Below are positions 17,382 to 32,113 of a stretch of DNA of 36,845 bases, piece after piece. The notes beneath the pieces are model-generated. The model made no database searches. It was given only the letters and a program-made list of their open reading frames with translations, and had not been told where the DNA came from. Origin of the DNA: Eubacteriales bacterium (lineage in GTDB: Bacteria > Bacillota > Clostridia > Lachnospirales > Lachnospiraceae); the NCBI GenBank assembly GCA_030527715.1, contig JAUNAF010000015.1:1-36845 (forward strand), written 5' to 3'. The first letter of the stretch is position 1. The number at the start of each line of letters is the position of its first letter. The translations under genes were made by a program, and so were the position numbers.

Positions 17382-18503
17382 TTATTTCAGCGCCTCATGA
17401 ACCTTTACCAGGGTATCACGGATCTGGATGTGCTGCGGGCAGACTTCTTCGCACTTGCCGCACTTTATGCATTCACCGGCTCTTAAGAAACCACGGTCAT
17501 CGACGCGGTATTTTTCCTGATACTTTGCCTTGGCAAGGTCGTCGAAGAGCAGCAGGTTGTTCATTGCAGTGAAAGAACCTGAGATACCGATATTCTTCGG
17601 ACAGACTTTTGCACAGTAGTTGCAGGAAGTACAGGGGATCATCGGAATTTTTGCAAGTGTATCGCGCACCACAGTGAGAACTTTGCGCTCCTCGTCATTG
17701 AGGTGTGTGAAATCCTTCATGTAGGAAAGATTGTCCTTCATCTGCTCGACATTGCTCATGCCGGAGAGCACTGTGAGAACACCGTCAAGATCTGCTGCGA
17801 ATTTGACTGCCCAGCTTGCATAGGAAGCATCAGGATCAGCAGCTTTCAGAAGATCCTTTACGGACTGAGGAGGATCTGCGAGCAGACCGCCCTTTACCGG
17901 CTCCATGATGATGACCGGCTTGCCATGCTTTCTTGCCACTTCATAGACGCCCTTGGACTGAATCGCGGAGCTGGTCCAGTCAGCATAGTTGATCTGCAGC
18001 TGTACAAATTCCATCTGCGGATGAGCAGTGAGGATGTCTTCAAGTTCCTCCGGAGTGGAATGGAAGGAGAAGCCGAGATGTTTGATCAGACCTTCCTTCT
18101 TCTTCTCAAGGAAATAATCCCAGAGACCGAAATCATCGAAGAAATGAGTACGTCCCTGACCGAGATTGTGCAGCAGATAGAAATCAAAATAACCTGCACC
18201 GGTCTGCTTCAGAGAAGTTTCGAACTGCGCGATCGCATCCTCTTTTGTTTTACAGTTGATCCAGGCCGCATTTTTGGTAGCCAGGGTGAAGGACTCGCGC
18301 GGATAACGCTCTACGAGTGCCTGACGGATCGCATCCTCACTTCCGGAGTATGCCCAGGCGGTGTCAAAATAGGTAAATCCTGCTTCCATAAAGAGATCTA
18401 CCATCTGTTTGGTCTGCTCGATATCGATCGTTGAATCCTCCAGTTTTGGGAGGCGCATCAAGCCGAAGCCGAGCTTTTTCGGGTTGTTGTCAAGTTCTGC
18501 CAT
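17382..18503 (-). CDS. Aldo/keto reductase with C-terminal [4Fe-4S] domain
   Basis: A 373-residue cytoplasmic oxidoreductase. Residues about 1-280 form the aldo/keto reductase barrel (FGLMRLPK, the catalytic-Tyr region FDTAWAYSGSEDAI, and YFDFYLLHNL). The C-terminus holds two Cys clusters, CTSCNYCAKVCP and CIKCGKCEEVCP, as in bacterial ferredoxin-like domains that bind two [4Fe-4S] clusters. Such fused proteins are common in anaerobes; physiological substrates are generally unknown and electrons may pass from ferredoxin rather than only NADPH. The ATG at 18503 has AGGAGG upstream on the minus strand. It is divergent from the serine hydrolase gene. Confidence 0.93.
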   Translation of the reverse strand: MAELDNNPKKLGFGLMRLPKLEDSTIDIEQTKQMVDLFMEAGFTYFDTAWAYSGSEDAIRQALVERYPRESFTLATKNAAWINCKTKEDAIAQFETSLKQTGAGYFDFYLLHNLGQGRTHFFDDFGLWDYFLEKKKEGLIKHLGFSFHSTPEELEDILTAHPQMEFVQLQINYADWTSSAIQSKGVYEVARKHGKPVIIMEPVKGGLLADPPQSVKDLLKAADPDASYASWAVKFAADLDGVLTVLSGMSNVEQMKDNLSYMKDFTHLNDEERKVLTVVRDTLAKIPMIPCTSCNYCAKVCPKNIGISGSFTAMNNLLLFDDLAKAKYQEKYRVDDRGFLRAGECIKCGKCEEVCPQHIQIRDTLVKVHEALK

Positions 18504-18619: not shown

Positions 18620-18679
18620 ATCAGTCAGGAGCCTGTGTGGAACAGGAAAATGATCAGAAACAGGGGAGGAACAGGGAAG

Positions 18680-19720
18680 ATGAGACAGAGATATCAGAAA
18701 ATATCAGCGCTGCTGCTTTTGTCAGCTGCACTCTGCATGGGAATGAGTGTCGGTACCGCTGCAGAGGAAAACGTGGAAGCGGCTGAGTATGAGACGACAG
18801 CAGTACAGGAAACAGAAGCGGGTGCAGAGGCGGAAGAAAATGTCGAGGCTGCAGAATACGAGGCTGCAGGAAGTGAAAGCGCGGAGGCAGATACCGAGGA
18901 GACTGTCGAGAGCGAGCGTGCAGGGAAAGAGGATACCATGGTGACGCCGATCACGGAACTTGTGGATTCTTATCTTGCAGGGCGTGCGGAGCTTGGAGAA
19001 AACTGGGCAGTCAGCATCGAAGATCTGACGACCGGTGAGGTCTACAACTACAATGCGGCAGTGCAGCAGCAGTCTGCGAGTGTGATCAAGGTATTTATTA
19101 TGGGAGCAGTGTATGAGCGCCTGCTCTATCCGACCTCTGACGAGATGGCCATCCCTTACAGCGGTGACAGCAGTACTCTTCGCAGTCTGGTGGAATCTAT
19201 GATCACGGTCAGTGACAATGAGTGCGCCAACAGACTTGTGGAGCTGCTCGGACAGGAAGATTTTGAGAAAGGTGCGGAGGTCGTAAATCAGTTCTGTGCG
19301 GACCATGGATTTGACGAGGTTCATCTCGGACGCAGATTCCTCGCAGTCGATCCGGCAGATGATAATTATATCAGTGCAGGAGACTGCCGTGCGATCCTGT
19401 CAGATATCTATCACAGAAGACTGGTAAATGAAATGGCCAGTGAGATGATGCAGGAGTATCTGAACAGACAGGAGAGGACATGGAAGATACCGGCAGGACT
19501 TCCGGCAGACTATACTTCCGGAAATAAGACCGGAGAGGTGTATGGGGACAATGGTCTCGGATACATCGAGAATGACATGGCGCTGGTCTACAGCCCTTAC
19601 GGTGACTACGTACTTGCGATCGCTTCCTCCAATCTGGACGGCCGCAATGATGAGGCAGACCAGGTGATCCAGAAGATCTCAGCAGATGTGGCACAGTGGT
19701 TTGCGGAGAAGCATGCATAA
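18680..19720 (+). CDS. Secreted class-A beta-lactamase-fold serine hydrolase
   Basis: A 346-residue exported protein. A signal peptide covers about residues 1-28 (basic start, then ALLLLSAALCMGMSVGTAA), followed by a strongly acidic linker to about residue 85 in which an AEENVEAAEYE block occurs twice. The hydrolase domain shows SxxK (S134, K137 in SVIK), SDN in MITVSDNECANRL, and KTG in SGNKTGEVY. The Glu-containing omega-loop motif of true class A beta-lactamases is not evident, so a cell-wall or peptide hydrolase role is at least as likely as drug resistance. The ATG at 18680 follows GGAGG and gives the cleanest signal peptide; in-frame GTG 18635 and ATG 18650 are weaker. A terminator follows. 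Confidence 0.85.
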   Translation: MRQRYQKISALLLLSAALCMGMSVGTAAEENVEAAEYETTAVQETEAGAEAEENVEAAEYEAAGSESAEADTEETVESERAGKEDTMVTPITELVDSYLAGRAELGENWAVSIEDLTTGEVYNYNAAVQQQSASVIKVFIMGAVYERLLYPTSDEMAIPYSGDSSTLRSLVESMITVSDNECANRLVELLGQEDFEKGAEVVNQFCADHGFDEVHLGRRFLAVDPADDNYISAGDCRAILSDIYHRRLVNEMASEMMQEYLNRQERTWKIPAGLPADYTSGNKTGEVYGDNGLGYIENDMALVYSPYGDYVLAIASSNLDGRNDEADQVIQKISADVAQWFAEKHA

Positions 19721-19757: not shown

Positions 19758-19812
19758 GAGCTGCCGTTCTTATCACTGATCATCAGTGTGATAGGAGCGG
19801 CTGCTCTTTTTT
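19758..19812 (+). terminator. Terminator after serine hydrolase gene
   Basis: Long imperfect stem: GAGC and GCCG pair with CGGC and GCTC around a T-T mismatch, then TTATCAC pairs with GTGATAG (one wobble), followed by six T (19807-19812). Confidence 0.8.
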
Positions 19813-19899: not shown

Positions 19900-19917
19900 T
19901 TGTTAAAAGCTTAACAG
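19900..19917. promoter_or_regulatory. Rex operator upstream of fumarate-reduction operon
   Basis: TTGTTAAAAGCTTAACAG matches the clostridial Rex consensus TTGTTAA-N4-TTAACAA at all but the last base. Rex represses fermentation and NADH-oxidising genes when NADH/NAD+ is low and releases DNA when NADH rises. The site lies 103 bases before the malate dehydrogenase start. A promoter TTAACA (19911-19916), 18-base spacer, GTTAAT (19935-19940) would overlap it, but that promoter call is tentative. A 12-base palindrome ATTAACGTTAAT (19929-19940) and an inverted repeat GATTGA-N10-TCAATC (19864-19885) lie in the same region. Confidence 0.75.
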
Positions 19918-20020: not shown

Positions 20021-20968
20021 ATGAGCAGCAAAATTACTATTATCGGAGCAGGAAGCGTAGGAGCAACGATTGCCTATACCTTATCAAGCAGTGATCTTGC
20101 ATCTGAGATCGTACTGATCGATATCAATAAAGACAAAGCAGAGGGAGAGGTGCTGGATATTATCCAGGGAACAAGCTTCCGCAGCCCGATTTCGATGATT
20201 TCCGGAGATTATGAGGATGCGAAGGATTCGGACATCGTCATCATCACCTCAGGCATCGCCCGCAAGCCGGGGCAGACCCGTATCGAGCTTGCTCAGACCA
20301 ATGTAAATATCCTGAAGGATATTACACCGCGTATCGTGAAAGAAGCACCGAACGCAAAATACATCATTGTCAGCAATCCGGTGGATGTGATGACCTATGT
20401 ATTTACAAAGATCTCCGGAATTCCGGAGAATCAGATCATCGGTTCCGGAACCATGCTGGATACCGCAAGACTTCGCTGCGGACTGTCCCAGCATTTCGGA
20501 GTGGCACAGAATAACATTCATGCATATGTATTCGGAGAGCACGGCGATACCGCATTTATTCCGTGGACCGGAGCCTACATCTCAGGAGTCAGCCTTGAGG
20601 AGTACGCAGAGATCGCAAAATCACAGGGCAGAGAGCTGGAGCCGCTGGACAAGGATGCGATGGTAGAGTATGTACACAAATCCGGCGGAAAGATCATTGC
20701 GAAAAAGGGAGCAACCTTCTATGCAGTATCCGTGACCGTCTGCAGACTGGTGGAGCTGCTTGTGGCAGCATCAGATACCGTAGTTACTGTCTCCTCCATG
20801 ATGCACGGAGAGTACGGCATCGAGGATGTGTGCTTAAGTACCCTGACACTGGTCGGACCGAACGGTATCCAGGGAAAGATCCCGATGCGAATGAGCAAGA
20901 CCGAGATCGCACAGTTAAAGAAGAGTGCAGATGCGCTTAAAGCAGTGATCGCTGAAATCGAATTATAA
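20021..20968 (+). CDS. mdh: Malate dehydrogenase (LDH-like family)
   Basis: A 315-residue NAD-dependent 2-hydroxyacid dehydrogenase with Rossmann motif GAGSVGATIA, NADH-selecting D34 in VLIDI, and catalytic H174 in GEHGDT. The substrate-specificity position in the mobile loop is Arg (R81 in GIARKPGQTR), as in malate dehydrogenases, where lactate dehydrogenases have Gln. Close relatives are often labelled lactate dehydrogenase, but both this residue and the linked fumarase and fumarate reductase genes favour oxaloacetate reduction to malate. It is the first gene of the operon, 34 bases from hdrB with no terminator between. ATG 20021 follows AAAGGAG; an in-frame GTG is two codons upstream. Confidence 0.82.
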   Translation: MSSKITIIGAGSVGATIAYTLSSSDLASEIVLIDINKDKAEGEVLDIIQGTSFRSPISMISGDYEDAKDSDIVIITSGIARKPGQTRIELAQTNVNILKDITPRIVKEAPNAKYIIVSNPVDVMTYVFTKISGIPENQIIGSGTMLDTARLRCGLSQHFGVAQNNIHAYVFGEHGDTAFIPWTGAYISGVSLEEYAEIAKSQGRELEPLDKDAMVEYVHKSGGKIIAKKGATFYAVSVTVCRLVELLVAASDTVVTVSSMMHGEYGIEDVCLSTLTLVGPNGIQGKIPMRMSKTEIAQLKKSADALKAVIAEIEL

Positions 20969-21002
20969 CCTGATGAAATAAAAAGAGAGGATAATAAAAG
21001 GG

Positions 21003-21800
21003 ATGAAATACAGTTATTATCCAGGGTGTACCCTGAAAAACAAGGCAAAGGACCTGGACGCATATGCCCGCCGTTCTGCCGAGGCACTCGGCTTTGAGCT
21101 TGAGGAGATCGAAAACTGGCAGTGCTGCGGCGGTGTCTACCCGCAGGGACAGGATGAGATCGCCACAAAGCTGTCCTCTGTCCGTGCACTGAATGACGCA
21201 AAGGAAAAGGAGCAGGATCTGGTGACTGTCTGTTCTGCCTGTCATCATGTGCTGAAGAGAGTCAACGATGATATGCAGCAGGGCGGAGACATCTGCACCC
21301 GCGCAAACAACTATCTGAAGCTTGAGGAAGCATATACCGGTGAGACAAAGGTGCTGCATTTCCTCGAAGTACTCAGAGACCGTGTCGGCTTTGATGAGAT
21401 CAGAAAGCAGGTAAAGAAGCCGCTGACCGGAAAGAAGATCGCAGCATACTACGGCTGTCTGCTCCTTCGCCCGGGAAAGGTGATGCAGTTTGATGATCCT
21501 GAGAATCCGCGCATCATGGAGGATCTGATCCGCGCACTCGGTGCAGAGCCGGTGATCTATCCGTACCGCAATGAGTGCTGCGGAGGATACATTTCCCTGA
21601 AGGAAAAGGAAATGGCGGCAGGAATGTGTGAAAATATCGCGGGAAGTGCAGCAGGCTTCGGTGCTGATCTGATGATCACCGCCTGTCCGCTCTGCATGTA
21701 CAACCTGAAAAAGAACGGAAAGCAGGATCTGCCGGTGGTGTACTTCACAGAGATCCTTGCAGAGGCACTCGGAGTGAAAGAGGAGGGAGCTGAAGAATGA
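21003..21800 (+). CDS. hdrB: HdrB-like subunit (two CCG domains)
   Basis: A 265-residue soluble protein with two complete CCG modules: C9-X31-C41-C42-X34-C77-XX-C80 and C152-X39-C192-C193-X34-C228-XX-C231. In methanogen HdrB these bind two non-cubane [4Fe-4S] clusters that split the heterodisulfide. Because both modules are intact, the subunit could handle a disulfide or act as an electron relay. Here the organism has no reason to use coenzyme M/coenzyme B, and the linked fumarate reductase suggests transfer towards FrdAB, as the HdrB-like C-terminal part of methanogen TfrB does. The start codon lies 7 bases after an AGAGAGGATAATAAAAGGG stretch. It overlaps hdrC as ATGA. Confidence 0.9.
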   Translation: MKYSYYPGCTLKNKAKDLDAYARRSAEALGFELEEIENWQCCGGVYPQGQDEIATKLSSVRALNDAKEKEQDLVTVCSACHHVLKRVNDDMQQGGDICTRANNYLKLEEAYTGETKVLHFLEVLRDRVGFDEIRKQVKKPLTGKKIAAYYGCLLLRPGKVMQFDDPENPRIMEDLIRALGAEPVIYPYRNECCGGYISLKEKEMAAGMCENIAGSAAGFGADLMITACPLCMYNLKKNGKQDLPVVYFTEILAEALGVKEEGAEE

Positions 21801-22186
21801 CGAATTCCAGAAGACAGGCCGAAAAGATCCGGGAAATCAGCGGCACCAATCCTTTGAAATGTATGAAGTGCGGAAAGTGTTCTGCAGTCTGTCCGGCGTT
21901 TGATGAGATGGACATCAAGCCGCATCAGTTTGTATCCTATGTGCAGAGAGAAGAGATCGAGGCACTGGCAGAGTCAAAATCTCTGTGGAAATGTCTCTCC
22001 TGTTTTGCCTGTGTGGAGCGCTGTCCGAGAGACGTAAAGCCCGGTGTTATCATCGATGCTGCGAGACAGCTGGTGATCCGTCAGAGAGGCGCAGCATATC
22101 TGAAGGCAGATGAGGTACCGGAGCTGCTGGATGAGGAGACCCCGCAGCAGCTGCTCGTCAGTGCATTCAGAAGATACAGGAGGTGA
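21797..22186 (+). CDS. hdrC: HdrC-like ferredoxin subunit
   Basis: A 129-residue cytoplasmic protein with two [4Fe-4S] motifs, CMKCGKCSAVCPAFDEM and CLSCFACVERCPRDVKPG, the standard HdrC arrangement. It should carry electrons between HdrA and HdrB. There are no membrane helices, so this is the soluble HdrABC type rather than the HdrDE type. It overlaps hdrB by four bases and its stop lies within the ribosome site of hdrA, a sign of tight translational coupling. Confidence 0.92.
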   Translation: MTNSRRQAEKIREISGTNPLKCMKCGKCSAVCPAFDEMDIKPHQFVSYVQREEIEALAESKSLWKCLSCFACVERCPRDVKPGVIIDAARQLVIRQRGAAYLKADEVPELLDEETPQQLLVSAFRRYRR

Positions 22187-22191
22187 GACAG

Positions 22192-24180
22192 GTGCAGAAG
22201 ATTGGAGTATTTGTTTGTCACTGCGGAACCAACATTGCAGGTACCGTAGATGTAAAAAAAGTAGTGGAAATGGCAGCGAAGGAGCCGGGAGTAGTCCATG
22301 CAGAGGATTACCAGTACATGTGCTCCGAGGCAGGTCAGTCAAAGATCATCGCAGCGATTCAGGAAAAAGGCCTGACCGGCGTGGTCGTCTGTTCCTGTTC
22401 CCCGCGTATGCATGAGGCGACCTTCCGCAAGGCAGCGGAGAAGGCGGGTCTGAACCCGTACATGGTCGAGATCGCAAATATCCGTGAGCACTGCTCCTGG
22501 ATCCACAAGGATATGCAGGAGGCAACCGAGAAGGCAGTGATCCTTGCGAGAGCAGCGATCGCGAAAGTAAATTTAAATGCCCCGCTGAAGGCAGGTGAGA
22601 GCCGTGTGACCAAGCGTGCCCTGGTCATCGGCGGAGGTATTGCCGGCATCCAGTCCGCGCTGGATATCGCAGATGCCGGATATGAGGTCGATATCGTAGA
22701 GAAGACCCCGAGTATCGGAGGAAGAATGTCCCAGCTGGACAAGACCTTCCCGACCCTGGACTGTTCCGCATGTATCCTGACACCGAAGATGGTGGAGGCT
22801 GCAGCACATGAGAAGATCCACATTTACACCTTCAGTGAGGTGGAAAAAGTGTCCGGCTTCGTCGGAGATTTCACGGTGGATATCCGCAAAAAAGCGCGCA
22901 GCGTGGATATGGACAAGTGTACCGGATGCGGTGTCTGCTCCGAAAAATGTCCGTCAAAGAAAAATCCGAGTGAGTTTAACCGTGGTCTCGGAAACCGCAG
23001 CGCGATCTACATTCCGTTTGCACAGGCGATCCCGAACGTTCCGGTCATTGACCGTGAACAGTGTATTAAATTTAAGACCGGAAAGTGCGGAGCATGTTCG
23101 AAGGTATGTCAGGCAGGCGCGATCGATTACGAGCAGCAGGATGAGATCGTAACACAGAAGTACGGTGCGATCGTTGTGGCAACCGGCTTTGACATGATCA
23201 AGCTGGATAAGTATGACGAGTATGCCTACAGCCAGAGCAAGGATGTCATCACCTCCCTTGAGCTGGAGCGACTGATGAATGCCGCAGGACCGACCGGCGG
23301 ACATCTGGAGAGACTTTCCGACGGAAGAGCTCCGAAGAACATCGTATTCGTACAGTGTGTCGGCAGCCGATGCGCAGATGAGCGCGGAAAGAGCTACTGC
23401 TCAAAGATCTGCTGCATGTACACCGCAAAGCATGCAATGCTGATCCGTGACAAGTATCCGGACACGAATGTGACCGTATTTTATATAGATGTACGTACTC
23501 CGGGAAAGAACTTTGACGAGTTCTACCGCAGAGCTGTGGAGGATTACGGAGTAAATTATGTCAAAGGTCAGGTCGGAAAGGTACTTCCGCAGCCGGATGG
23601 ATCCCTGCTGGTACAGGCATCGGATCTTCTGGACAACCGACAGATCAAAATGGAGGCAGATCTGGTCGTGCTCGCAGCAGCGATCGAGCCGAATCCGGAT
23701 GTGCGCCGCATCGCAACGATGCTGACCGCAAGTATTGATACCAACAATTTCCTGACTGAGGCACACGCAAAGCTGCGTCCGGTAGAGTCTCCGACTGCAG
23801 GAATTTTCCTCTCCGGTGTCTGCCAGGGACCGAAGGATATCCCGGAGACTGTAGCACAGGCAGGAGCAGCAGCAGTAAAGGCAATCGGCCTGCTGGCAAA
23901 GGACAAGCTGCTGACGAATCCGTGTACGGCACAGTCTGATGAACTCCTCTGCAACGGATGTTCACAGTGCGCAAATGTCTGCCCGTACGGAGCGATCTCC
24001 TATGAGGAAAAACTTGTAAATGACCACGGTATCCGCGAGACACGAAGAGTGGCAGTGGTAAACAATGCACTCTGTCAGGGCTGCGGAGCCTGCACAGTCA
24101 CCTGTCCGTCCGGTGCCATGGACTTACAGGGATTCTCCAACAGACAGATTATCTCGGAGGTAGATGCGATATGTCGATAG
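22192..24180 (+). CDS. hdrA: HdrA-like electron-bifurcating flavoprotein
   Basis: A 662-residue soluble iron-sulfur flavoprotein. It has an N-terminal Cys region (FVCHCGTNIAG, VVCSCSPRMHE), an FAD-binding Rossmann motif ALVIGGGIAGIQSALDIADA, the following LDCSACILTPKM Cys motif, an inserted ferredoxin region (CTGCGVCSEKCP, CGACSKVCQAGAIDY) and a C-terminal two-cluster domain (CNGCSQCANVCPYGAISY, CQGCGACTVTCPSGAMDL). This is the full HdrA layout. In methanogens its FAD is the site of electron bifurcation. The GTG at 22192 is 8 bases after AGGAGG; the GTG at 22183 overlaps that site. It overlaps the next gene by 10 bases. Bifurcation here is inferred from family and partners, not proved. Confidence 0.92.
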   Translation: MQKIGVFVCHCGTNIAGTVDVKKVVEMAAKEPGVVHAEDYQYMCSEAGQSKIIAAIQEKGLTGVVVCSCSPRMHEATFRKAAEKAGLNPYMVEIANIREHCSWIHKDMQEATEKAVILARAAIAKVNLNAPLKAGESRVTKRALVIGGGIAGIQSALDIADAGYEVDIVEKTPSIGGRMSQLDKTFPTLDCSACILTPKMVEAAAHEKIHIYTFSEVEKVSGFVGDFTVDIRKKARSVDMDKCTGCGVCSEKCPSKKNPSEFNRGLGNRSAIYIPFAQAIPNVPVIDREQCIKFKTGKCGACSKVCQAGAIDYEQQDEIVTQKYGAIVVATGFDMIKLDKYDEYAYSQSKDVITSLELERLMNAAGPTGGHLERLSDGRAPKNIVFVQCVGSRCADERGKSYCSKICCMYTAKHAMLIRDKYPDTNVTVFYIDVRTPGKNFDEFYRRAVEDYGVNYVKGQVGKVLPQPDGSLLVQASDLLDNRQIKMEADLVVLAAAIEPNPDVRRIATMLTASIDTNNFLTEAHAKLRPVESPTAGIFLSGVCQGPKDIPETVAQAGAAAVKAIGLLAKDKLLTNPCTAQSDELLCNGCSQCANVCPYGAISYEEKLVNDHGIRETRRVAVVNNALCQGCGACTVTCPSGAMDLQGFSNRQIISEVDAICR

Positions 24181-24614
24181 AAGCAAATGAAGAATTCAAG
24201 CCAAAGATCGTAGCCTTCTGCTGCAACTGGTGCAGCTATGCAGGCGCAGACCTTGCCGGAAGCAGCAGACTGACGTATCCGGCGGACGTAAAGATCATCC
24301 GTGTTCCCTGCTCCTGCAGAGTCAACCCGATGTTTATCCTGAGAGCTTTTGAGAAAGGTGCGGACGGTGTGATCCTCTGCGGATGCCATCCGGGAGACTG
24401 CCATTACACCTCAGGAAATTATTATGCAAGAAGAAGAATGACACTGCTGTTCTCCATGCTGGATTTCATCGGCGTGGAGCATGGACGTACCCGTGTAGAG
24501 TGGGTGTCCGCCGCAGAGGGTGTAAAGTTCTCTAAGACCATGAATGAATTTGTCGAGAAGATCTATTCCCTGGGCAAAAATGTCAGATTGGAGGATTTGA
24601 GATGCAAGAGCTGA
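24171..24614 (+). CDS. flxD: MvhD/FlxD-like [2Fe-2S] electron-transfer subunit
   Basis: A 147-residue protein of the MvhD family (annotated in methanogens as the F420-non-reducing hydrogenase iron-sulfur subunit). Cys-rich segments FCCNWCSYAGADLAG, VPCSCRVNP and LCGCHPGDCHY provide the ligands for a [2Fe-2S] cluster. In Mvh-Hdr complexes this subunit docks on HdrA and feeds it electrons; in bacteria with FlxABCD-HdrABC the equivalent FlxD links the NADH-oxidising module. There is no hydrogenase gene here, which fits the Flx role. It overlaps hdrA by 10 bases and flxC by 13. Confidence 0.88.
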   Translation: MSIEANEEFKPKIVAFCCNWCSYAGADLAGSSRLTYPADVKIIRVPCSCRVNPMFILRAFEKGADGVILCGCHPGDCHYTSGNYYARRRMTLLFSMLDFIGVEHGRTRVEWVSAAEGVKFSKTMNEFVEKIYSLGKNVRLEDLRCKS

Positions 24615-25576
24615 GAGACCGAGTAAAGGAACTTCTGGCGGACGGCACGGTAGACCGTGTCCTGGGCTGGAAGGCAGGAGACCTGCCGTACAATCCGGAA
24701 GCAGCCTATTTTGAGACAGTGGAAAGCCTGGATGAGTTTGTATACAACGGATTCTGCGGTGCAAACCTGAGCAAGATGATGATCGAGGCATCAAAGCTTG
24801 AGGGAAAGACCCTCGTCTGTCTGAAGCCGTGCGATACCTACAGCTTCAACCAGCTGATCACAGAGCACCGTGTGGACCGTGAAAAAGCGTACATCCTCGG
24901 TGTCGGCTGCAAGGGCAAGCTGGATATGGAAAAGGTACGCGCACTTGGCATCAAGGGCGTGGAGCAGGTACAGGGTGCGGAAGCCGACGGCGATGCAGAG
25001 CACCTGACCTTCCAGACGATCTACGGAGAGAAGAACTGCTCCTACAGTGCGGCAATGCTGGAGCGCTGCCATGTCTGCAAGGGAAAAGAGCACAGAATCT
25101 ATGACGAGCTGATCGGAGAGTCTAAGGAGACCAAAGACGCAGAGCGTTTTACCGAAGTGGAAAAGATCGAGGCGATGAGCCCGGAGGAAAAATTTGCCTA
25201 CTTCCAGAAGGAACTGAGCAAATGTATCCGCTGCAATGCCTGCCGCAATGCCTGTCCGGCCTGCAGCTGCCGCAAATGTGTGTTTGACAGCACGAAATTC
25301 GACAGTGCCCAGAAGGCAAATGTGGATTCCTTCGAGGAGAGAATGTTCCACATCATCCGTGCCTTCCATGTTGCCGGAAGATGTACGGACTGCGGTGAGT
25401 GCAGCAGAGTCTGCCCGCAGGGCATTCCGCTTCACCTGTTCAACCGCAAATTTATCAAGGATATCGATACCTTCTACGGTGAGTACCAGGCCGGAAGCGA
25501 GGCAGATATGAGAGGTCCGCTGGTCAGCTACACCTTTGACGATATTGAGCCGGGTCAGACGGCAGAAAGGGGATAA
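24602..25576 (+). CDS. flxC: FlxC-like iron-sulfur subunit
   Basis: A 324-residue cytoplasmic protein. The N-terminal part (about 1-190) resembles the FrhB-type domain of F420-linked oxidoreductases, with conserved LVCLKPCDTYSFNQLI and YILGVGCKGKL. The C-terminal part carries two [4Fe-4S] motifs, CIRCNACRNACPACSCRKC and CTDCGECSRVCPQGI. Gene order and domain content match the third subunit of the bacterial FlxABCD module, although the name is assigned by synteny and general resemblance. The start overlaps flxD by 13 bases and the next gene follows after three bases, so stoichiometric synthesis is likely. Confidence 0.8.
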   Translation: MQELRDRVKELLADGTVDRVLGWKAGDLPYNPEAAYFETVESLDEFVYNGFCGANLSKMMIEASKLEGKTLVCLKPCDTYSFNQLITEHRVDREKAYILGVGCKGKLDMEKVRALGIKGVEQVQGAEADGDAEHLTFQTIYGEKNCSYSAAMLERCHVCKGKEHRIYDELIGESKETKDAERFTEVEKIEAMSPEEKFAYFQKELSKCIRCNACRNACPACSCRKCVFDSTKFDSAQKANVDSFEERMFHIIRAFHVAGRCTDCGECSRVCPQGIPLHLFNRKFIKDIDTFYGEYQAGSEADMRGPLVSYTFDDIEPGQTAERG

Positions 25577-25579
25577 TGT

Positions 25580-26617
25580 ATGTATAAGATCGAAAAAGCA
25601 AACCTGAATGCATTATTCCGGAAGATCTCCGAGACCCAGGATCTGATCGCACCGATCCGTACCGCAGGACAGACAAATTTCCGTCTGTGGACCGAGGACG
25701 AGACGGTGGATCTGGATACTTTAAAGACTGTAAAATCCGGAAAAGATGCATTTTTCCCGCAGAGTGAGAATCTTTACACCTGCGTAAGAGAGGGAAAGAA
25801 GCTCTCAGTCCTTCCGGAAAGTCTGAAAGAAAAACCGTTTACGGTATTCGGCATGAAAGCCTGTGATGTGAAGGGCGTCGAAGTGCTGGACAAGGTGTTC
25901 TTATCAGAGCCGGTGGACAGCTTTTATGCGGCAAGACGTGACCACGGAACCATCGTTGCCCTGGCCTGCAATGAGCCGGAGGAGTCCTGCTTCTGTCAGG
26001 TCTTCGGAACCGACTGTGCGAGCCCGGCAGGAGATGTCTCTGTATGGATCCGTGAGGAGGAACTGTTCTGGCAGGCAAACACAGAGAAGGGCGAGGCCCT
26101 GACCGAGGCAGTGCGCGAGCTGTTGACCGAGACTGCTGAGAATGAGGAACAGTCACTGGAAGAGCAGAAGCAGAGCATTCGACAGATCGTGCAGAAACTT
26201 CCGTACACCGGTCTTTCCCTGGAGGGATGGGGAACGGACGGAGGACAGGAAAGATTCGATTCTCCGCTTTGGGAGACACTCTACAAACCGTGTCTGGCCT
26301 GCGGCACCTGCACCTTCGTATGTCCGACCTGTCAGTGCTATGATATCAAGGATTACGATACCGGCCATGGAGTACAGCGCTATCGCTGCTGGGATTCCTG
26401 CATGTATTCTGACTTTACCATGATGGCACACGGAAACAACCGTACCAGCCAGATGCAGAGATTCCGTCAGAGATTCATGCACAAGCTGGTGTACTTCCCG
26501 GTGAACAATGACGGCATGTACTCTTGCGTAGGCTGCGGCCGCTGTGTGGAGAAGTGCCCGGAAGCATTGAATATCGTGAAAGTGATCAAGACCTTTGCAA
26601 AACAGGGGGACAAATAA
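25580..26617 (+). CDS. flxB: FlxB-like (sulfhydrogenase beta-type) iron-sulfur subunit
   Basis: A 345-residue protein of the sulfhydrogenase-beta/anaerobic sulfite reductase A type. The N-terminal region contains FGMKACDVKGVEVLDKVF, typical of this family, then a Cys-containing FCQVFGTDC region. Two ferredoxin motifs follow near the C-terminus, CLACGTCTFVCPTCQC and CVGCGRCVEKCPEALNI. In sulfhydrogenases and FlxABCD it passes electrons between the flavin NADH subunit and the other Fe-S proteins. It is three bases after flxC and two bases before flxA. Confidence 0.85.
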   Translation: MYKIEKANLNALFRKISETQDLIAPIRTAGQTNFRLWTEDETVDLDTLKTVKSGKDAFFPQSENLYTCVREGKKLSVLPESLKEKPFTVFGMKACDVKGVEVLDKVFLSEPVDSFYAARRDHGTIVALACNEPEESCFCQVFGTDCASPAGDVSVWIREEELFWQANTEKGEALTEAVRELLTETAENEEQSLEEQKQSIRQIVQKLPYTGLSLEGWGTDGGQERFDSPLWETLYKPCLACGTCTFVCPTCQCYDIKDYDTGHGVQRYRCWDSCMYSDFTMMAHGNNRTSQMQRFRQRFMHKLVYFPVNNDGMYSCVGCGRCVEKCPEALNIVKVIKTFAKQGDK

Positions 26618-26619
26618 GA

Positions 26620-27474
26620 ATGAGTGAATGTACCTGTCATAAAAATTATACACTGGACACTCTGATCCCGAAGGTCGGAGTGATCACGGATATCCGGGAG
26701 GAGACCCCGGATGTAAAGACCTTCCGTGTGAATGCACCGGAAGGCGGAAAGCTGTTTGAACATATGCCCGGACAGTGCGCAATGCTGTGTGCGCCGGGTG
26801 TCAGTGAGGGAATGTTTTCCATCACCTCTTCTCCGACAAACCATGAGTTTCAGGAGTTCAGTATCAAGAAATGCGGTGAGCTCACCTCTTATCTGCACAG
26901 CCTGCAGGTGGGTGATGAGATCACCGTGCGCGGACCGTACGGAAATCATTTCCCGGTGGAAAATGAGCTGAAGGGCAAAAATCTTCTGTTCATCGCCGGA
27001 GGTATCGGTCTTGCGCCGCTGCGTTCTGTGATCAACTATGTGCTGGACAACCGTGAGGACTACGGTACCGTGGATATTCTCTACGGTTCCCGTTCCGCAG
27101 ATGATCTGGTGCAGCTGAAGGAGATCCAGGAAGTCTGGATGAAGACCGAGGGCGTCAATGTGTACCTGACCATCGACAGAGAGCAGGAGGGCTGGGACGG
27201 TCATGTCGGCTTCGTTCCGTCCTATCTGAAGGAGATCGGATTCACCACGGATAAGGTAGCACTTGTCTGCGGACCGCCGATCATGATCAAGTTTGTACTG
27301 CAGGGTCTGGAGGAGCTCGGATTTTCCAGAGAGCAGGTCTACACGACCCTGGAGCTGCGCATGAAGTGCGGCGTCGGAAAGTGCGGAAGATGCAATATCG
27401 GCTCAAAATATGTATGCAAGGATGGACCGGTGTTCCGGATGGATGAGGTAGATCAGCTGCCGGACGAGTATTAG
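26620..27474 (+). CDS. flxA: FlxA-like NAD(P)H:acceptor flavoprotein (sulfhydrogenase gamma-type)
   Basis: A 284-residue soluble FAD/NAD(P)-binding protein of the ferredoxin-NADP reductase superfamily. An FAD-binding barrel (about 15-110, with FSITSSPTN) is followed by an NAD(P)-binding fold (LLFIAGGIGLAPLRSVI, and VALVCGPPIMIKFV) and a C-terminal [2Fe-2S] Cys cluster MKCGVGKCGRCNIGSKYVC. The nearest functional types are sulfhydrogenase gamma, PyrK-like and FlxA. It is the expected entry point for NADH electrons into the HdrA complex. ATG 26620 follows a CAGGGGGA site; the longer reading frame overlaps flxB and is not needed. Confidence 0.9.
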   Translation: MSECTCHKNYTLDTLIPKVGVITDIREETPDVKTFRVNAPEGGKLFEHMPGQCAMLCAPGVSEGMFSITSSPTNHEFQEFSIKKCGELTSYLHSLQVGDEITVRGPYGNHFPVENELKGKNLLFIAGGIGLAPLRSVINYVLDNREDYGTVDILYGSRSADDLVQLKEIQEVWMKTEGVNVYLTIDREQEGWDGHVGFVPSYLKEIGFTTDKVALVCGPPIMIKFVLQGLEELGFSREQVYTTLELRMKCGVGKCGRCNIGSKYVCKDGPVFRMDEVDQLPDEY

Positions 27475-27495
27475 AAGATGGAGGAACCCAAAAAG

Positions 27496-28170
27496 ATGGA
27501 GAAGATGGTAAACGTATATTTTTTCGGTAAAAAGTACAGCGTTCCGGCTGATCTTACGATAATGACCGCGATGGAGTATGCCGGCTATACCCTGACCAGA
27601 GGCTGCGGCTGCCGTCACGGCTTCTGCGGTGCCTGTGCGACCATGTACCGTATCAAGGGAAAAAATGAGCTGAAGACCTGCCTGGCCTGTCAGACTCAGG
27701 TAGAGGAAGGCATGTATGTGGCAAGCATTCCGTTCTTCCCGACAGATAAGAGAACCTATGAGATCAATGAGATCCGCCCGGAGCAGCGCATCATGATGGA
27801 GCTCTATCCGGAGATCTACAGCTGCATCGGCTGCAATGCCTGTACCAAGGCATGTACACAGGATCTGAACGTTATGCAGTATATCGCATATGCACAGCGC
27901 GGTGAGTTTGAGAAGTGTGCAGAGGAATCCTTCGACTGTGTATCCTGCGGCTGCTGTTCTGTTCGCTGCCCTGCTGAAATTTCTCATCCGATGGTGGGAC
28001 TGCTCGCAAGACGTCTTACCGGAAAATACATCGCACCGAAGAGCGAGCATCTCGAGAAGCGCGTGGAGGAGATCCATGCAGGTGCTCATGATGAGCTGAT
28101 CGAGCAGATCATGGGCAAGTCCATCACAGAGATGGAAGAACTGTACAATCACAGAGATATTGAGAAATAG
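27496..28170 (+). CDS. frdB: Fumarate reductase iron-sulfur subunit
   Basis: A soluble FrdB/SdhB-family protein of about 224 residues. The N-terminal plant-type [2Fe-2S] domain has CRHGFCGAC and a later CLAC; the C-terminal domain has CIGCNACTKACTQD and CVSCGCCSVRCPA. No membrane anchor subunits (FrdC/FrdD or SdhC/SdhD) are encoded nearby, so it should be cytoplasmic. It resembles the N-terminal half of methanogen TfrB, whose HdrB-like half is here a separate gene. Three ATGs compete: 27478 has no ribosome site, 27496 has GGAGG 11 bases upstream, 27505 has a close GGAG. I chose 27496. Confidence 0.85.
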   Translation: MEKMVNVYFFGKKYSVPADLTIMTAMEYAGYTLTRGCGCRHGFCGACATMYRIKGKNELKTCLACQTQVEEGMYVASIPFFPTDKRTYEINEIRPEQRIMMELYPEIYSCIGCNACTKACTQDLNVMQYIAYAQRGEFEKCAEESFDCVSCGCCSVRCPAEISHPMVGLLARRLTGKYIAPKSEHLEKRVEEIHAGAHDELIEQIMGKSITEMEELYNHRDIEK

Positions 28171-28182
28171 GGAGGGAGAACC

Positions 28183-29784
28183 ATGTTTACACCGGAAATG
28201 ATGGAGTCCGTAAAAAAGGTGGAAGCCACCAGAGACGCGCGTATGGGCATGGAGCCCAGACGTATGACCGCTCAGGAAAAGGATGAGCTGCTCAGAGCTT
28301 TCCATCCGGATTACAGAGCGGAGGCATTTGAGGAGATCAAGATCGGACCGAACAAGGGAGAGAAGGCACCGGCGGAGCTGGCACATCTGCTGCACTCCAA
28401 CAGCCGTCTGCTGGATACCGAGATCGATTTAAATAAAATTGACTATGATGTGGACGTGCTGGTCATCGGCGGCGGCGGAGCAGGTGCTTCCGCAGCGATC
28501 GAGGCACATGAGGCCGGCGCTGACGTTATGATGGTTACCAAGCTGCGTATCGGTGATGCAAACACCATGATGGCAGAGGGCGGTATCCAGGCGGCAGACA
28601 AGGAGAATGATTCCCCGGCACAGCATTATCTGGATGCATTCGGCGGCGGACACTTTGCTGCAAGACCGGAGCTGCTGAAGAAACTGGTTATGGAGGCTCC
28701 GGATGCGATCGCATGGCTGAATGCACTCGGAGTAATGTTCGATAAGGACGAGGACGGCAGAATGGTGACCACCCACGGCGGCGGTACTTCCAGAAAGAGA
28801 ATGCATGCCTGCAAGGATTATTCCGGAGCAGAGATCATGCGTACACTGCGCGATGAGGTACTCAACCGCAAGATCCCGGTAGTGGAGTTTACTTCTGCGG
28901 TAGAGCTGATCCAGGATGACAAGGGACAGGCTGCCGGAGCGGTTCTGTTAAATATGGAGACCGGCGATTACCTGGTTGCCAGAGCAAAGACGGTGATCAT
29001 CGCGACCGGCGGTGCAGGACGCATGCATTATCAGGGATTTGCAACTTCCAACCATTACGGAGCAACCGCAGACGGTCTGGTTCTGGGCTATCGCGCAGGA
29101 GCACCGCTGCTGTATCAGGATACCATTCAGTATCATCCGACAGGTGTGGCATTCCCGTCTCAGATCTACGGTGCACTGGTAACAGAGAAGGTTCGTTCTC
29201 TCGGTGCAATGCTGGTCAATGTGGACGGTGAGGCCTTCATGCATCCGCTGGAGACCCGTGACGTATCCGCAGCCTCTATCATCCGTGAGTGTACAGAGAG
29301 AGGCAAGGGTGTGACTACTCCGCTCGGTACCGGCGTTTGGCTGGATACCCCGATGATCGAGCGCATCGGCGGTGAGGGCACGATCGAGAAGAGAATTCCG
29401 GCAATGCTCCGTATGTACATGAATTATGGAATCGATATGAGAAAGCTTCCGATCCTGATCTACCCGACCCTGCACTATCAGAATGGCGGTCTGGAGATCG
29501 GCGGAGACGGATTCACCAAGACGATTTCCAACCTTCTGGTGGCAGGAGAGGCAGTCGGAGGAATCCACGGCCGCAACCGTCTGATGGGAAATTCCCTTCT
29601 GGATATCATCGTATTCGGAAGAGATGCAGGTAAGGCAGCAGCTGCCCGTGCAAAGGAAGTTACCCTCGGAACCATGAACCTGGATCATATCAGGGACTAT
29701 GCAGAGGCACTGAAAGATGCTAACATAGAGAGTAACGACGTTTCTCCGATGCTTCTTCCGAAGTATGCGAGACACGAGAGATAA
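28183..29784 (+). CDS. frdA: Fumarate reductase flavoprotein subunit
   Basis: A 533-residue FAD protein of the fumarate reductase/succinate dehydrogenase/aspartate oxidase family. The FAD motif is VLVIGGGGAGASAA from about residue 93. Substrate and catalytic positions are kept: H318 in QYHPTG, R338 in TEKVRSLGA, H431 in LHYQNGG and R466 in RNRLMGNSLLD. The His that binds FAD covalently in membrane FrdA/SdhA is replaced by N127 (in GDANTMMAEGG), so FAD should be non-covalent. About 85 residues precede the FAD fold, an unusual extension that may dock on Hdr or FrdB. It is 12 bases after frdB. Fumarate reduction is supported by the adjacent fumarase, although related flavoproteins use other enoates. 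Confidence 0.88.
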   Translation: MFTPEMMESVKKVEATRDARMGMEPRRMTAQEKDELLRAFHPDYRAEAFEEIKIGPNKGEKAPAELAHLLHSNSRLLDTEIDLNKIDYDVDVLVIGGGGAGASAAIEAHEAGADVMMVTKLRIGDANTMMAEGGIQAADKENDSPAQHYLDAFGGGHFAARPELLKKLVMEAPDAIAWLNALGVMFDKDEDGRMVTTHGGGTSRKRMHACKDYSGAEIMRTLRDEVLNRKIPVVEFTSAVELIQDDKGQAAGAVLLNMETGDYLVARAKTVIIATGGAGRMHYQGFATSNHYGATADGLVLGYRAGAPLLYQDTIQYHPTGVAFPSQIYGALVTEKVRSLGAMLVNVDGEAFMHPLETRDVSAASIIRECTERGKGVTTPLGTGVWLDTPMIERIGGEGTIEKRIPAMLRMYMNYGIDMRKLPILIYPTLHYQNGGLEIGGDGFTKTISNLLVAGEAVGGIHGRNRLMGNSLLDIIVFGRDAGKAAAARAKEVTLGTMNLDHIRDYAEALKDANIESNDVSPMLLPKYARHER

Positions 29785-29828
29785 GAACTCTTGACAAAAT
29801 CTTTCACAGGATAAGGAGTGTGTACGCG

Positions 29829-30671
29829 ATGCGAGAGATCAAAGCTTCACAGATTACAGAAGTCGTAGAGCGGCTTTGTATTGAGGCAAATCAGCATTTG
29901 CCGAAGGATGTACAGGGAGCGATCCGTCAGTGCCGCGCCTGCGAAGACGGTGCGATTGCCTGCGGCGTTCTGGATGACATTATTGAAAATTTTGAGATTG
30001 CAGACAGAGAGAATGTGCCGATCTGTCAGGACACCGGTATGGCCTGTGTCTTCCTGGAGATCGGTCAGGATGTGCATATCACAGACGGTGACCTCCGTGA
30101 GGCAGTGGATGAGGGTGTGCGCAGAGGATATACAGAAGGTTATCTGCGCAAATCCGTGGTAAAGGATCCGGTGCGCCGCGGCAATACCGGAGACAATACT
30201 CCGGCAATGCTCTACACAGAGATCGTTCCGGGAGAGCAGATCCGGATCACGGTCGGTCCGAAGGGCTTCGGCAGCGAAAATATGAGTATGATCCGTATGT
30301 TCAAGCCGTCCGCAGGTCTGCAGGGAATCAAGGATTTCATCCTTGAGGTCGTAGAGACAGCAGGTCCGAATCCGTGCCCGCCGATGGTAGTCGGCGTCGG
30401 TATCGGCGGTACGTTTGATAAATGTGCACTGCTTGCGAAAAAGGCACTGATGAGACCGATCGATTCCGAGAATCCGGATCCGTTCTATGCAGATCTGGAG
30501 AAGGAGATGCTGGAAAAGATCAACCGGCTGGGCATCGGACCGCAGGGCTTTGGCGGAAAGACAACGGCGATCGGACTGAATATCGAGACGATGCCGACGC
30601 ACATTGCCGGAATGCCGTGTGCCGTGAATATCAACTGTCATGTGACACGCCATAAGACGGAGGTGATCTGA
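29829..30671 (+). CDS. fumA: Class I fumarate hydratase, alpha subunit
   Basis: A 280-residue N-terminal-type subunit of two-part [4Fe-4S] fumarase (also called TtdA-like), dehydrating malate to fumarate. Visible family blocks are VPICQDTGMACVFLEIG, RRGNTGDNTPAMLYTEIVPG, KGFGSENMSM and GPNPCPPMVVGVGIGGTFD; the Cys residues in these are the expected cluster ligands. Tartrate dehydratase has the same fold, but the mdh and frd context favours fumarase. The ATG at 29829 follows AGGAG by 10 bases; an in-frame GTG at 29820 is too close to it. The beta subunit begins two bases after the stop. The cluster is oxygen sensitive, consistent with an anaerobe. Confidence 0.9.
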   Translation: MREIKASQITEVVERLCIEANQHLPKDVQGAIRQCRACEDGAIACGVLDDIIENFEIADRENVPICQDTGMACVFLEIGQDVHITDGDLREAVDEGVRRGYTEGYLRKSVVKDPVRRGNTGDNTPAMLYTEIVPGEQIRITVGPKGFGSENMSMIRMFKPSAGLQGIKDFILEVVETAGPNPCPPMVVGVGIGGTFDKCALLAKKALMRPIDSENPDPFYADLEKEMLEKINRLGIGPQGFGGKTTAIGLNIETMPTHIAGMPCAVNINCHVTRHKTEVI

Positions 30672-30673
30672 TC

Positions 30674-31237
30674 ATGGAGAGAAGAAAGATAACTCTGCCG
30701 CTGACAGAGGAGCTGGCAAAGACACTTCACGCAGGAGATCAGGTGCTGGTGACCGGCACGATCTATACCTCCCGCGATGCAGGTCATAAGAGAATGTGTG
30801 AGGCACTCGCAAGAGGAGAAAAGATCCCGTTTGATCCGACGGATGCAACGATCTACTATGTCGGACCGACACCGGCAAAGCCGGGCAAGGTGATCGGATC
30901 CGCAGGACCGACCACAAGCGGACGTATGGATGCCTATGCACCGACCATGATGTCTGTCGGCGCGAGAGGCATGATCGGAAAAGGTGCGCGTCTGCCGGAA
31001 GTCGTGGAGGCTATGAAAAAATACAGCGGAGTTTACTTTGGTGCGATCGGCGGTGCGGGTGCACTGCTGGCAAAGTGCATCAAAGAGGCAGAGCTGATCG
31101 CATATGAGGATCTCGGTGCAGAGGCACTGCGCAGACTCTATGTGGAGGATATGCCGCTGGTCGTTATTATCGACAGTGAAGGAAACAACCTGTATGAGAT
31201 GGGCCGCAAGGCATATCTGGAACAGAGAAGGTCCTGA
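30674..31237 (+). CDS. fumB: Class I fumarate hydratase, beta subunit
   Basis: A 187-residue C-terminal-type subunit of class I fumarase. Conserved segments include VTGTIYTSRDAGHKRM, YYVGPTPA, the diagnostic SAGPTTSGRMDAYAP and MIGKGARLPEVVEAMKKY, followed by YFGAIGGAGAL. It completes the active enzyme with the alpha subunit directly upstream (two-base gap). The pair supplies fumarate to the reductase encoded in the same operon. Confidence 0.92.
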   Translation: MERRKITLPLTEELAKTLHAGDQVLVTGTIYTSRDAGHKRMCEALARGEKIPFDPTDATIYYVGPTPAKPGKVIGSAGPTTSGRMDAYAPTMMSVGARGMIGKGARLPEVVEAMKKYSGVYFGAIGGAGALLAKCIKEAELIAYEDLGAEALRRLYVEDMPLVVIIDSEGNNLYEMGRKAYLEQRRS

Positions 31238-31280
31238 GAATGGCCTTCGAGAGGATAAAATCGTTATTGGAGGGAAGAAC

Positions 31281-31970
31281 TTGACAAACTATCATGATGA
31301 TCTGCAGATGTCGGAAGCATTTATCAATACAGCATTTCTGGCGCTCTCCGGCGGACTTCAGGATGCCTATACGTACAATGTACGAGATCAGGTTTTTTCC
31401 AACGCACAGACAGGAAACGTGGTGCTGATGAGTCAGTTTCTGATGAGCGGACAGTGGGGACATATTTTGAGGTATCTGTTCCCGCTGATCTCCTTTGCAC
31501 TCGGGGTCTGGGTGACGGAGTCCATCCAGGGACACTTCCGTGATGCGAAAAAAATGCACTGGAGACAGGGGATCCTTCTCGCAGAGATCGTGATCTTATT
31601 TATCGTAGGATTTATTCCGGGTTCTTTAAATATGGTGGCTACGGCGCTGGTATCCTTCACCTGTGCAATGCAGGTGCAGGCCTTCCGCAAGGTCAACGGC
31701 TATGCCTATGCCAGCACGATGTGCATCGGCAATCTCCGCGGAGGTACGGCAGCGCTGTCATCCTTTTTCAGACGTCACAGAAAAGAGGATCTCAAGAAAG
31801 CAGGATATTATTTCGGAGTCATTTTTTTCTTTGCGGTCGGAGCGGGCCTTGGAGGAAATCTGTCTCTTCGCTATGGATACCATGTGATCTGGTTATCCTG
31901 TGCGCTGTTGTTTATCAGCTTCGTGCTGATGTACTTTGAGCGTTTCCGGTTTCACGATCATTTACTGTAG
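31281..31970 (+). CDS. YoaK-family (DUF1275) membrane protein
   Basis: A 229-residue membrane protein with about six helices. The early ALSGGLQDAYTY, SNAQTGNVVLMSQFL and later TMCIGNLRGGTAAL are typical of the DUF1275/YoaK family, whose function is not established. The TTG at 31281 has GGAGGG six bases upstream and gives the family's usual length; the longer frame overlaps fumB. It is 43 bases after fumB with no terminator between, so it appears to be the last gene of the fumarate operon. A transport role for a dicarboxylate is possible but has no support beyond position. Confidence 0.8.
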   Translation: MTNYHDDLQMSEAFINTAFLALSGGLQDAYTYNVRDQVFSNAQTGNVVLMSQFLMSGQWGHILRYLFPLISFALGVWVTESIQGHFRDAKKMHWRQGILLAEIVILFIVGFIPGSLNMVATALVSFTCAMQVQAFRKVNGYAYASTMCIGNLRGGTAALSSFFRRHRKEDLKKAGYYFGVIFFFAVGAGLGGNLSLRYGYHVIWLSCALLFISFVLMYFERFRFHDHLL

Positions 31971-32084: not shown

Positions 32085-32113
32085 TTGACAACTGGAAAAG
32101 AGGCTGTTATAAT
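32085..32113 (+). promoter_or_regulatory. Perfect consensus sigma-A promoter of metY-cysK operon
   Basis: TTGACA (32085-32090), an exact 17-base spacer and TATAAT (32108-32113). Expected start near 32120, within operator 2. Such a strong promoter implies tight negative control. Confidence 0.92.

Follow-up and report, generated by a model that had tools for sequence, protein, structure and literature searches.

A conserved clostridial operon for a predicted soluble NADH:fumarate reductase built on Flx-Hdr proteins, with its own malate dehydrogenase and fumarase

Methanogen TfrAB consists of a soluble FrdA-like subunit and TfrB, in which FrdB-like and HdrB-like parts are joined. The twelve-gene cluster analyzed here, mdh-hdrB-hdrC-hdrA-flxD-flxC-flxB-flxA-frdB-frdA-fumA-fumB, is located at positions 20021-31237 of the + strand of the window, which is a complete 36,845-base contig (C50) of a Lachnospiraceae genome (2.35 Mb, 139 contigs, 91.5% complete). 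It resembles TfrAB in that its FrdA-like subunit is predicted to be soluble, but differs from it in that FrdB and HdrB are separate chains, the match to the TfrA model is 331 bits as against a cut-off of 718, and the likely electron donor is NADH, not thiols. FlxABCD-HdrABC of Desulfovibrio vulgaris has the same subunit set, an NADH module and HdrABC, but, as described, its partner is DsrC, its flxC and flxD are fused and it has no fumarate reductase. MvhADG-HdrABC (5odc) and MetFV-HdrABC-MvhD (PMC5861303) are likewise described as HdrA/MvhD-based devices with an exchangeable electron partner, but their acceptors are heterodisulfide or methylene-tetrahydrofolate, not fumarate. The "succinate operon" of Pseudoclostridium thermosuccinogenes, described in a 2020 paper that assumes ferredoxin coupling (PMC7282089) and cites a 2019 preprint (10.20944/preprints201912.0288.v1), brings together genes for a fumarate hydratase, for Flx-Hdr and for a fumarate reductase encoded by two genes, and is followed by a possible succinate exporter. 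By gene content, compared with that description, the present cluster holds the same three elements together, but the operon described has one fumarase gene and no mdh. A similar proposal exists for tubeworm symbionts (PMC6315080, PMC11636981): there and in Thioflavicoccus, fumarate reductase genes are described as standing among flx-hdr (tfrAB-korABCD-flxABCD-hdrABC) and direct electron transfer is proposed, but the setting is an autotrophic reductive tricarboxylic acid (TCA) cycle, and tfrAB is named after methanogen Tfr. Ferredoxin-coupled fumarate reduction has been proposed in print since 2019-2020 and is not a new idea. What is new here is that partner-specific HdrB and Rex-type control support the existing proposal. 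The initial annotation of this DNA, made from its letters, knew of no biochemical report of such an assembly, and none was found in the literature searched, outside of which most subscription journals lie. That this gene set carries out NADH:fumarate reduction is, in our judgment, highly probable.

The features of the operon, with products assigned from NCBIfam and Pfam profile matches, are as follows.

19900-19917, +: Rex-type operator-like palindrome TTGTTAAAAGCTTAACAG, one mismatch to TTGTTAANNNNTTAACAA, roughly 100 bases upstream of mdh
20021-20968, +: mdh, malate dehydrogenase of the lactate dehydrogenase-like family (ATG at 20021; Arg83)
21003-21800, +: hdrB, two CCG domains with ten Cys for two non-cubane clusters
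21797-22186, +: hdrC, small protein with two [4Fe-4S] motifs
22183-24180, +: hdrA, subunit with FAD and ferredoxin domains, candidate bifurcation site (HdrA2 model, alignment with 5odc_A)
24171-24614, +: flxD, MvhD-like (PF02662)
24602-25576, +: flxC, Fe-S protein (assigned from domains only)
25580-26617, +: flxB, AsrA/ShyB-like Fe-S subunit
26620-27474, +: flxA, FAD/NAD(P)-binding reductase subunit with a DHODB-type [2Fe-2S] site, predicted entry of NADH
27478-28170, +: frdB, [2Fe-2S] and two four-Cys [4Fe-4S] motifs, no HdrB-like part (also from alignments)
28183-29784, +: frdA, fumarate reductase flavoprotein from a family of its own (also from PDB matches, alignment and tree)
29829-30671, +: fumA, class I fumarase alpha subunit (416.9 bits, cut-off 276)
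30674-31237, +: fumB, class I fumarase beta subunit (292.8 bits, cut-off 238)

The gene order, the shared strand and the overlaps or short gaps given by the initial annotation are confirmed for all twelve genes, and its gene identities are upheld by the profiles. The distances are 34 bases for mdh-hdrB, -4 for hdrB-hdrC, -4 for hdrC-hdrA, -10 for hdrA-flxD, -13 for flxD-flxC, 3 for flxC-flxB, 2 for flxB-flxA, 3 for flxA-frdB, 12 for frdB-frdA, 44 (the largest) for frdA-fumA and 2 for fumA-fumB. FlxA starts at the ATG at 26620, not at the start of the longest open reading frame. FAD- and NAD-binding domains are present in FlxAB (Pfam), in line with the entry of NADH at FlxA that the initial annotation predicts. 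HdrA, HdrB, HdrC, FrdA and FrdB give clear family matches, all below the NCBIfam equivalog cut-offs, and are therefore called homologues, not curated equivalogs. No membrane-protein gene is present between mdh and fumB, and promoter and Rfam scans found nothing for the operon.

Among the best 80 FrdA matches listed, which represent close relatives only, the closest named ones, at 87-88% identity, are from Lachnospiraceae (Blautia glucerasea and assemblies of this family among them), and cultured carriers include Blautia glucerasea, Blautia schinkii, [Clostridium] asparagiforme and others. The order hdrB-C-A-flxD-C-B-A-frdB-A is found in all 51 of these loci that have at least 7.5 kb upstream. 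The remaining 29 shorter loci are consistent with this order, 20 with at least flxA upstream and 9, at contig ends, with only frdB or nothing. Thus, frd genes seldom kept beside hdr-flx, the finding that would count against the initial annotation, are not what is seen among close relatives; hdrBC-Flx is the donor set used without exception there. In 200 genomes of the family, FrdA homologues at E <= 1e-60 are present in 19, and a close HdrA in 22, namely in all 19 FrdA carriers and in 3 of the 181 others (Fisher p 8.6e-24). Chance linkage of frd with hdr-flx is ruled out by this value and by the invariant order. In one of the three genomes with HdrA only (G163), the contig stops within frdB (93% identity), and the other two (G021, G050) have distant Hdr-Flx clusters with HdrB of 31-32% identity. 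In G057 and G044, two carriers with a truncated FrdA contig, hdrBCA-flxDCB(A) lies on a separate contig that ends in flxA or frdB. An AspT/YidE-type antiporter homologue is encoded on the same strand in 47 of the 80 best-matching loci; this family includes a succinate exporter. None is encoded in the 36,845-base contig. The distant cluster of G021 (L122, contig C3), hdrCB-hdrA-flxDCBA, adjoins a DMSO/TorA-type molybdoenzyme and a polyprenyl diphosphate synthase, and that of G050 (L123, contig C24), of the same order, adjoins a DmsB-like protein, MenA and MenG. These neighbours possibly represent another Hdr-Flx partner, perhaps linked to menaquinone.

FrdA was aligned with FrdA, SdhA and NadB of E. 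coli K-12. His318, Glu335, Arg338, Arg359, His431 and Arg466 occupy the catalytic places of SdhA/FrdA in this alignment, and the His/Glu/Arg/His/Arg set of fumarate reductase/succinate dehydrogenase flavoproteins is complete. These six residues and Asn127, which lies at the place of the FAD-linking His45 of E. coli FrdA/SdhA, are invariant in all 34 members aligned (of 58 available). The protein has an N-terminal extension of about 88 residues and lacks the C-terminal helical domain of FrdA/SdhA. Its best PDB matches are succinate dehydrogenase chains, and its best NCBIfam match is TfrA (331.3 bits). In a 32-row tree, a branch of length 1.76 (SH-aLRT 100) sets the FrdA family apart from E. coli FrdA and SdhA, from NadB and from further clostridial homologues, the rows outside the family carrying a long-branch warning. 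The [2Fe-2S] motif and the two four-Cys motifs of FrdB are invariant in 32 of 32 rows, and its third motif has four Cys, replacing the three-Cys [3Fe-4S] motif of quinol-linked FrdB. Quinol:fumarate reductase (FrdABCD) is ruled out by Asn127 at the place of His, by the four-Cys third cluster and by the lack of a membrane gene from mdh to fumB. The proteins fall outside methanogen Tfr (PRK06263/PRK06259) by the TfrA score, by the 34 of 385 bits of FrdB and by the separate HdrB, and outside 8-methylmenaquinol:fumarate reductase (SdhABE) by scores of 149.2 of 500 bits with the SdhE model and 220.1 of 1100 with the SdhA model. The cluster motifs and gene content thus agree with the soluble fumarate reductase, free of quinone-site and membrane parts, that had been read from the sequence.

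All seven subunit homologues of FlxABCD-HdrABC lie in one cluster, as judged by domain composition. HdrA matches 5odc_A with 696 bits; the Cys of its four ferredoxin-type motifs all align, and three further Cys of 5odc_A are not Cys in HdrA. Both the FAD domain and the complete ferredoxin-type cluster motifs of HdrA-type bifurcating complexes are present. The top NCBIfam models of HdrB are MFR SdhE (149 bits) and CoB-CoM HdrB (142 bits), and all ten Cys of its two CCG domains are kept, being invariant in 23 of 23 aligned rows (of 48 available). No CCG domains are found elsewhere in the genome. The HdrA2 model is matched by HdrA at positions 1-640 of 777 (799.5 bits) and by FlxD at positions 641-773, and the single-chain TfrB model is matched in turn by FrdB (18-87), HdrC (120-218) and HdrB (263-487). 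These two matches constitute fusion evidence for contact between the chains. Four HdrA frames of other genomes (G450:C63, G474:C29, G232:C65 and G279:C153) contain a single in-frame TGA, possibly for selenocysteine, and the HdrA of L025 (G098:C44) is in two pieces in adjacent frames, by a frameshift or an assembly error.

One branch of a 48-row HdrB tree (support 100/100) separates 43 rows from 5. The 43 rows comprise 38 that are linked to FrdBA or lie on broken FrdBA contigs and 5 from genomes with FrdBA elsewhere, and include four loci without hdrA. The 5 rows are the two molybdoenzyme- or menaquinone-linked ones, L131 and L132, whose genomes have FrdBA beside cytochromes, and a second HdrB in L101. 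The identities of HdrB and HdrA were compared for 40 loci with an HdrB and an HdrA of 550-760 residues, leaving out L025 (split) and L132 (in-frame TGA); the frd set includes L124-L128, which have frdBA elsewhere in the genome, and the other set consists of L122, L123 and L131 only. Where HdrA identity is 50-55%, HdrB identity averages 45.5% within the frd set (264 pairs; 33.8-52.7) and 32.1% across the sets (71 pairs; 26.1-38.1). This result fits a role of HdrB as the subunit that would face FrdB, the outside set being small.

In a phylum sample of 398 genomes, the FrdA family has 40 loci in 39 genomes, with 51-65% identity apart from the studied locus; the next matches are at E 1e-78. Hdr genes adjoin FrdBA at 21 of the 40 loci. 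The complete hdrABC-flxABCD set is beside FrdBA at 6 (the studied locus, four frdBA-hdrBCA-flxDCBA loci and L102). At 11, some of them cut by contig ends, the hdr genes are accompanied by a second large HdrA-like protein and by a flxC-like protein of a different type, and at 4 hdrCB-frdBA stands without hdrA or flx alongside. One locus is cut at frdA, and 18 have no hdr beside frdBA. Thus, the order hdrBCA-flxDCBA-frdBA, which the initial annotation proposed to seek in other genomes, holds for all close relatives that can be judged, but the complete set is present at only these 6 loci of the phylum sample. Among the 18 loci without hdr, those with fumarase or malic enzyme nearby number 9, with pyruvate carboxylase 3, with a cytochrome b561/ferredoxin protein 3 and with c-type cytochrome or FMN-binding proteins 2, some loci counting in more than one group. 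FrdBA is accordingly a swappable module with several donors, since it stands beside HdrBC alone, beside cytochromes or beside no evident donor. HdrB follows its partner while FrdBA combines with several donors, which shows how such complexes assemble in evolution. HdrA was sought in 27 of the 38 other genomes of the phylum sample with this family, leaving out 11 with two adjacent HdrA at the locus, and is present somewhere in 23 of them; where inspected, the unlinked HdrA is in a separate hdr-flx cluster. Donor swapping is seen at L106-L108, where FrdBA adjoins the cytochrome b561/ferredoxin protein, and at L080 and L105, where it adjoins a multihaem c-type cytochrome and FMN-binding proteins. 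At L073-L079, L082, L083, L085 and L095, FrdBA and HdrA are accompanied by a second, roughly 1,070-residue HdrA-like protein and an FrhB_C/Fer4 protein, with genes for 2-oxoacid:ferredoxin oxidoreductase and succinyl-CoA ligase downstream; these loci look like a reductive TCA branch to 2-oxoglutarate.

The product of the first gene passes both the L-lactate dehydrogenase cut-off TIGR01771 (327.7 versus 303.55 bits) and the malate dehydrogenase subfamily cut-off PRK06223 (286.2 versus 283 bits). Lactate dehydrogenases have Gln at the position of Arg83, by a specificity rule, and Arg83 is present in all 53 cluster homologues that span the site (one of 54 does not span it). Malate is therefore the better substrate call, and lactate dehydrogenase is rejected on Arg83, the family scores being ambiguous. 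FumA and FumB both exceed the NCBIfam fumarase equivalog cut-offs. L(+)-tartrate dehydratase is rejected for fumAB, because its model gives 185 bits (cut-off 365) as against 417 (cut-off 276) for fumarase. Some loci carry in the cluster, in place of FumAB, the class II fumarase FumC, which is unrelated to class I. The presence of mdh and fumAB inside the operon supports the earlier view that the reductase has its own supply of malate and fumarate.

The clostridial Rex consensus was taken from PMC9600882 and PMC5367854. In the studied contig alone the site is not significant: two matches with at most 3 mismatches are found where 0.74 are expected, and 18 of 100 shuffles reach two. Its significance comes from its recurrence in relatives. 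Among the 69 of 100 loci that have hdrB and 300 or more bases ahead of the first gene, which include near-copies or one organism twice (L028 and L173 are on equally long contigs), a site with at most 2 mismatches is present in 37 upstream regions and one with at most 3 in 50, as compared with 0.7% and 7.2% of shuffled upstream regions; the best of 104 permuted palindromes is found in 5 of the 69. Random windows of the same loci contain the pattern with at most 2 mismatches in 1.45% of cases, and the 163 AT-rich ones in 8.0%, true sites being possibly included. The same genome encodes a Rex N-domain (C59:14290-14433). Rex senses NADH, which ties the operon to NADH surplus. Transcription of the operon is probably repressed by Rex and released as NADH rises, as these predicted sites suggest. 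No earlier report of Rex-type control for such operons was found in the literature searched.

The following mechanism would account for these results. A cytoplasmic FlxABCD-HdrABC-FrdAB complex would reduce fumarate to succinate with NADH, and Mdh and fumarase from the same operon would supply the substrate, the operon as a whole probably converting oxaloacetate to succinate. NADH would donate a hydride to the flavin of FlxA, from which electrons would reach the FAD of HdrA by way of FlxB, FlxC and FlxD. From there, a high-potential branch would lead through HdrC, HdrB and FrdB to the FAD of FrdA, where fumarate would be reduced, and a low-potential branch would lead through the ferredoxin domains of HdrA to ferredoxin, which Rnf or a hydrogenase could use. 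The net reaction would be fumarate + 2 NADH + Fd(ox) -> succinate + 2 NAD+ + Fd(red, 2 e-). The fumarate potential is +33 mV. With -320 mV for NADH and -420 mV for ferredoxin, as given in PMC5861303, the transfer from NADH to fumarate is computed as -68 kJ/mol and that from NADH to ferredoxin as +19 kJ/mol at standard conditions, and their sum as -49 kJ/mol, or -33 kJ/mol with ferredoxin at -500 mV. The computed energetics are in the range of known bifurcations, for which the same paper gives -52 to -60 (PMC5861303). The genome also holds an Rnf homologue (C31), an [FeFe]-hydrogenase (C132) and a phosphoenolpyruvate carboxykinase (PEPCK; C57). ATP-type PEPCK at E <= 1e-30 is present in 18 of the 19 FrdA carriers as compared with 104 of the 181 others (p 9.5e-4). 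This enrichment is weak support, because the genomes share ancestry, one match among the 18 is a fragment at a contig end, and the other genomes may rely on a different type of PEPCK. A POR_N match was rejected as pyruvate:ferredoxin oxidoreductase, since it lies in a 578-residue frame and is no proof. We consider the bifurcating complex as a whole to be the best explanation of the locus, with somewhat better than even prospects of being correct, and the obligatory coupling to ferredoxin to be only slightly less credible.

Three other explanations were weighed against this one. A plain soluble NADH:fumarate oxidoreductase, with the Hdr proteins as a wire from FlxA to FrdA and without obligatory ferredoxin reduction, is in accord with the function of FrdBA elsewhere without HdrA, with the strongly downhill step from NADH to fumarate (-68 kJ/mol) and with Rex-type control, which suits mere NADH disposal. 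It is nevertheless unlikely, because the ferredoxin-type motifs of HdrA are all conserved with respect to bifurcating HdrA, and because every close relative with enough sequence keeps HdrA, which a plain wire would not demand. It is improbable that Flx-Hdr instead makes a dithiol carrier from NADH and that FrdAB takes its electrons at HdrB, the coupling being through a small thiol or a DsrC-like protein. HdrB does retain both sets of Cys for non-cubane clusters, four loci have hdrCB-frdBA alone, and D. vulgaris Flx-Hdr interacts with DsrC according to PMC10504309 and PMC10920352; however, a DsrC-family protein was not found in the 91.5% complete genome, and donor and acceptor would have to share the single HdrB, there being no other CCG domains in the genome.

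The least probable of the three, with very little in its favour, is that FrdA has a different function within its superfamily, for example that of an L-aspartate oxidase or enoate reductase. FrdA scores 252-257 bits with the NCBIfam NadB models, lies below all equivalog cut-offs and belongs to a family that forms its own branch; TfrA, however, scores highest, and the fumarases found with the cluster are of two unrelated classes. Glu121 of NadB is an L-aspartate oxidase residue. Its place is taken by Gly199 in FrdA and by Gly or Ala across the 11 aligned members, and this replacement, together with a NadB score of 252.3 of 452.75 bits, speaks against L-aspartate oxidase.

Several observations weigh against the bifurcating complex and its Rex-type control. 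FrdBA has no adjacent HdrA at 22 of the 40 loci of the phylum sample, the neighbours being indeterminable at one more, and 4 of the 27 genomes tested have no close HdrA, so that the enzyme is in principle independent of HdrA. The frd locus of L101 includes an additional HdrB that falls in the other clade, an exception on a flagged long branch. The HdrA tree, which contains the artefact row L085, does not resolve the split by partner. No Rex-type site within 3 mismatches is present in 19 of the 69 upstream regions. Rnf, which the initial annotation had proposed to seek in the same genomes, is present in 17 of the 19 FrdA carriers but is not enriched there (162 of 181 others; 179 of 200 overall), two carriers have no Rnf match, and Rnf enrichment was dropped as support. 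Finally, homology to HdrA suggests but does not prove bifurcation, as PMC5861303 states for such homologues.

The chances seem evenly balanced for a broader picture, in which common gut Clostridia (Blautia, Dorea, Mediterraneibacter and relatives) would have a Rex-controlled bifurcating NADH:fumarate reductase with HdrB as a wire into FrdB, not as a disulfide-reducing site. Succinate formation would then yield reduced ferredoxin and, through Rnf, an ion-motive force without quinones, and Hdr-Flx would be a general plug-in with HdrB choosing the acceptor. If the ferredoxin coupling is true, fumarate would be added to the acceptors of HdrA-type complexes, heterodisulfide among them, and many Clostridia would make succinate, a central gut metabolite, by an energy-conserving cytoplasmic route and not by a respiratory chain in the membrane. 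The proposal is directly testable, given the conserved operon, the carriers in culture and the Rex-type sites.

Other genes of the window were noted around the operon. A Beta-lactamase2-domain (PF13354) protein is encoded directly 5' of it (18635-19720, +), with a weak terminator-like site behind the gene at 19793. Further upstream are genes for an aldo/keto reductase bearing a two-cluster ferredoxin domain at its C terminus (17382-18503, -) and for a macrodomain protein with a long C-terminal portion that has no Pfam match (10571-11683, +). A DUF1275 membrane protein, retained in few relatives only, is encoded directly 3' of fumB (about 31257-31970, +). It is followed by a perfect sigma-70 consensus promoter (TTGACA-17-TATAAT, extended -10; 32085-32113, +) ahead of an O-acetylhomoserine sulfhydrylase/cysK pair.

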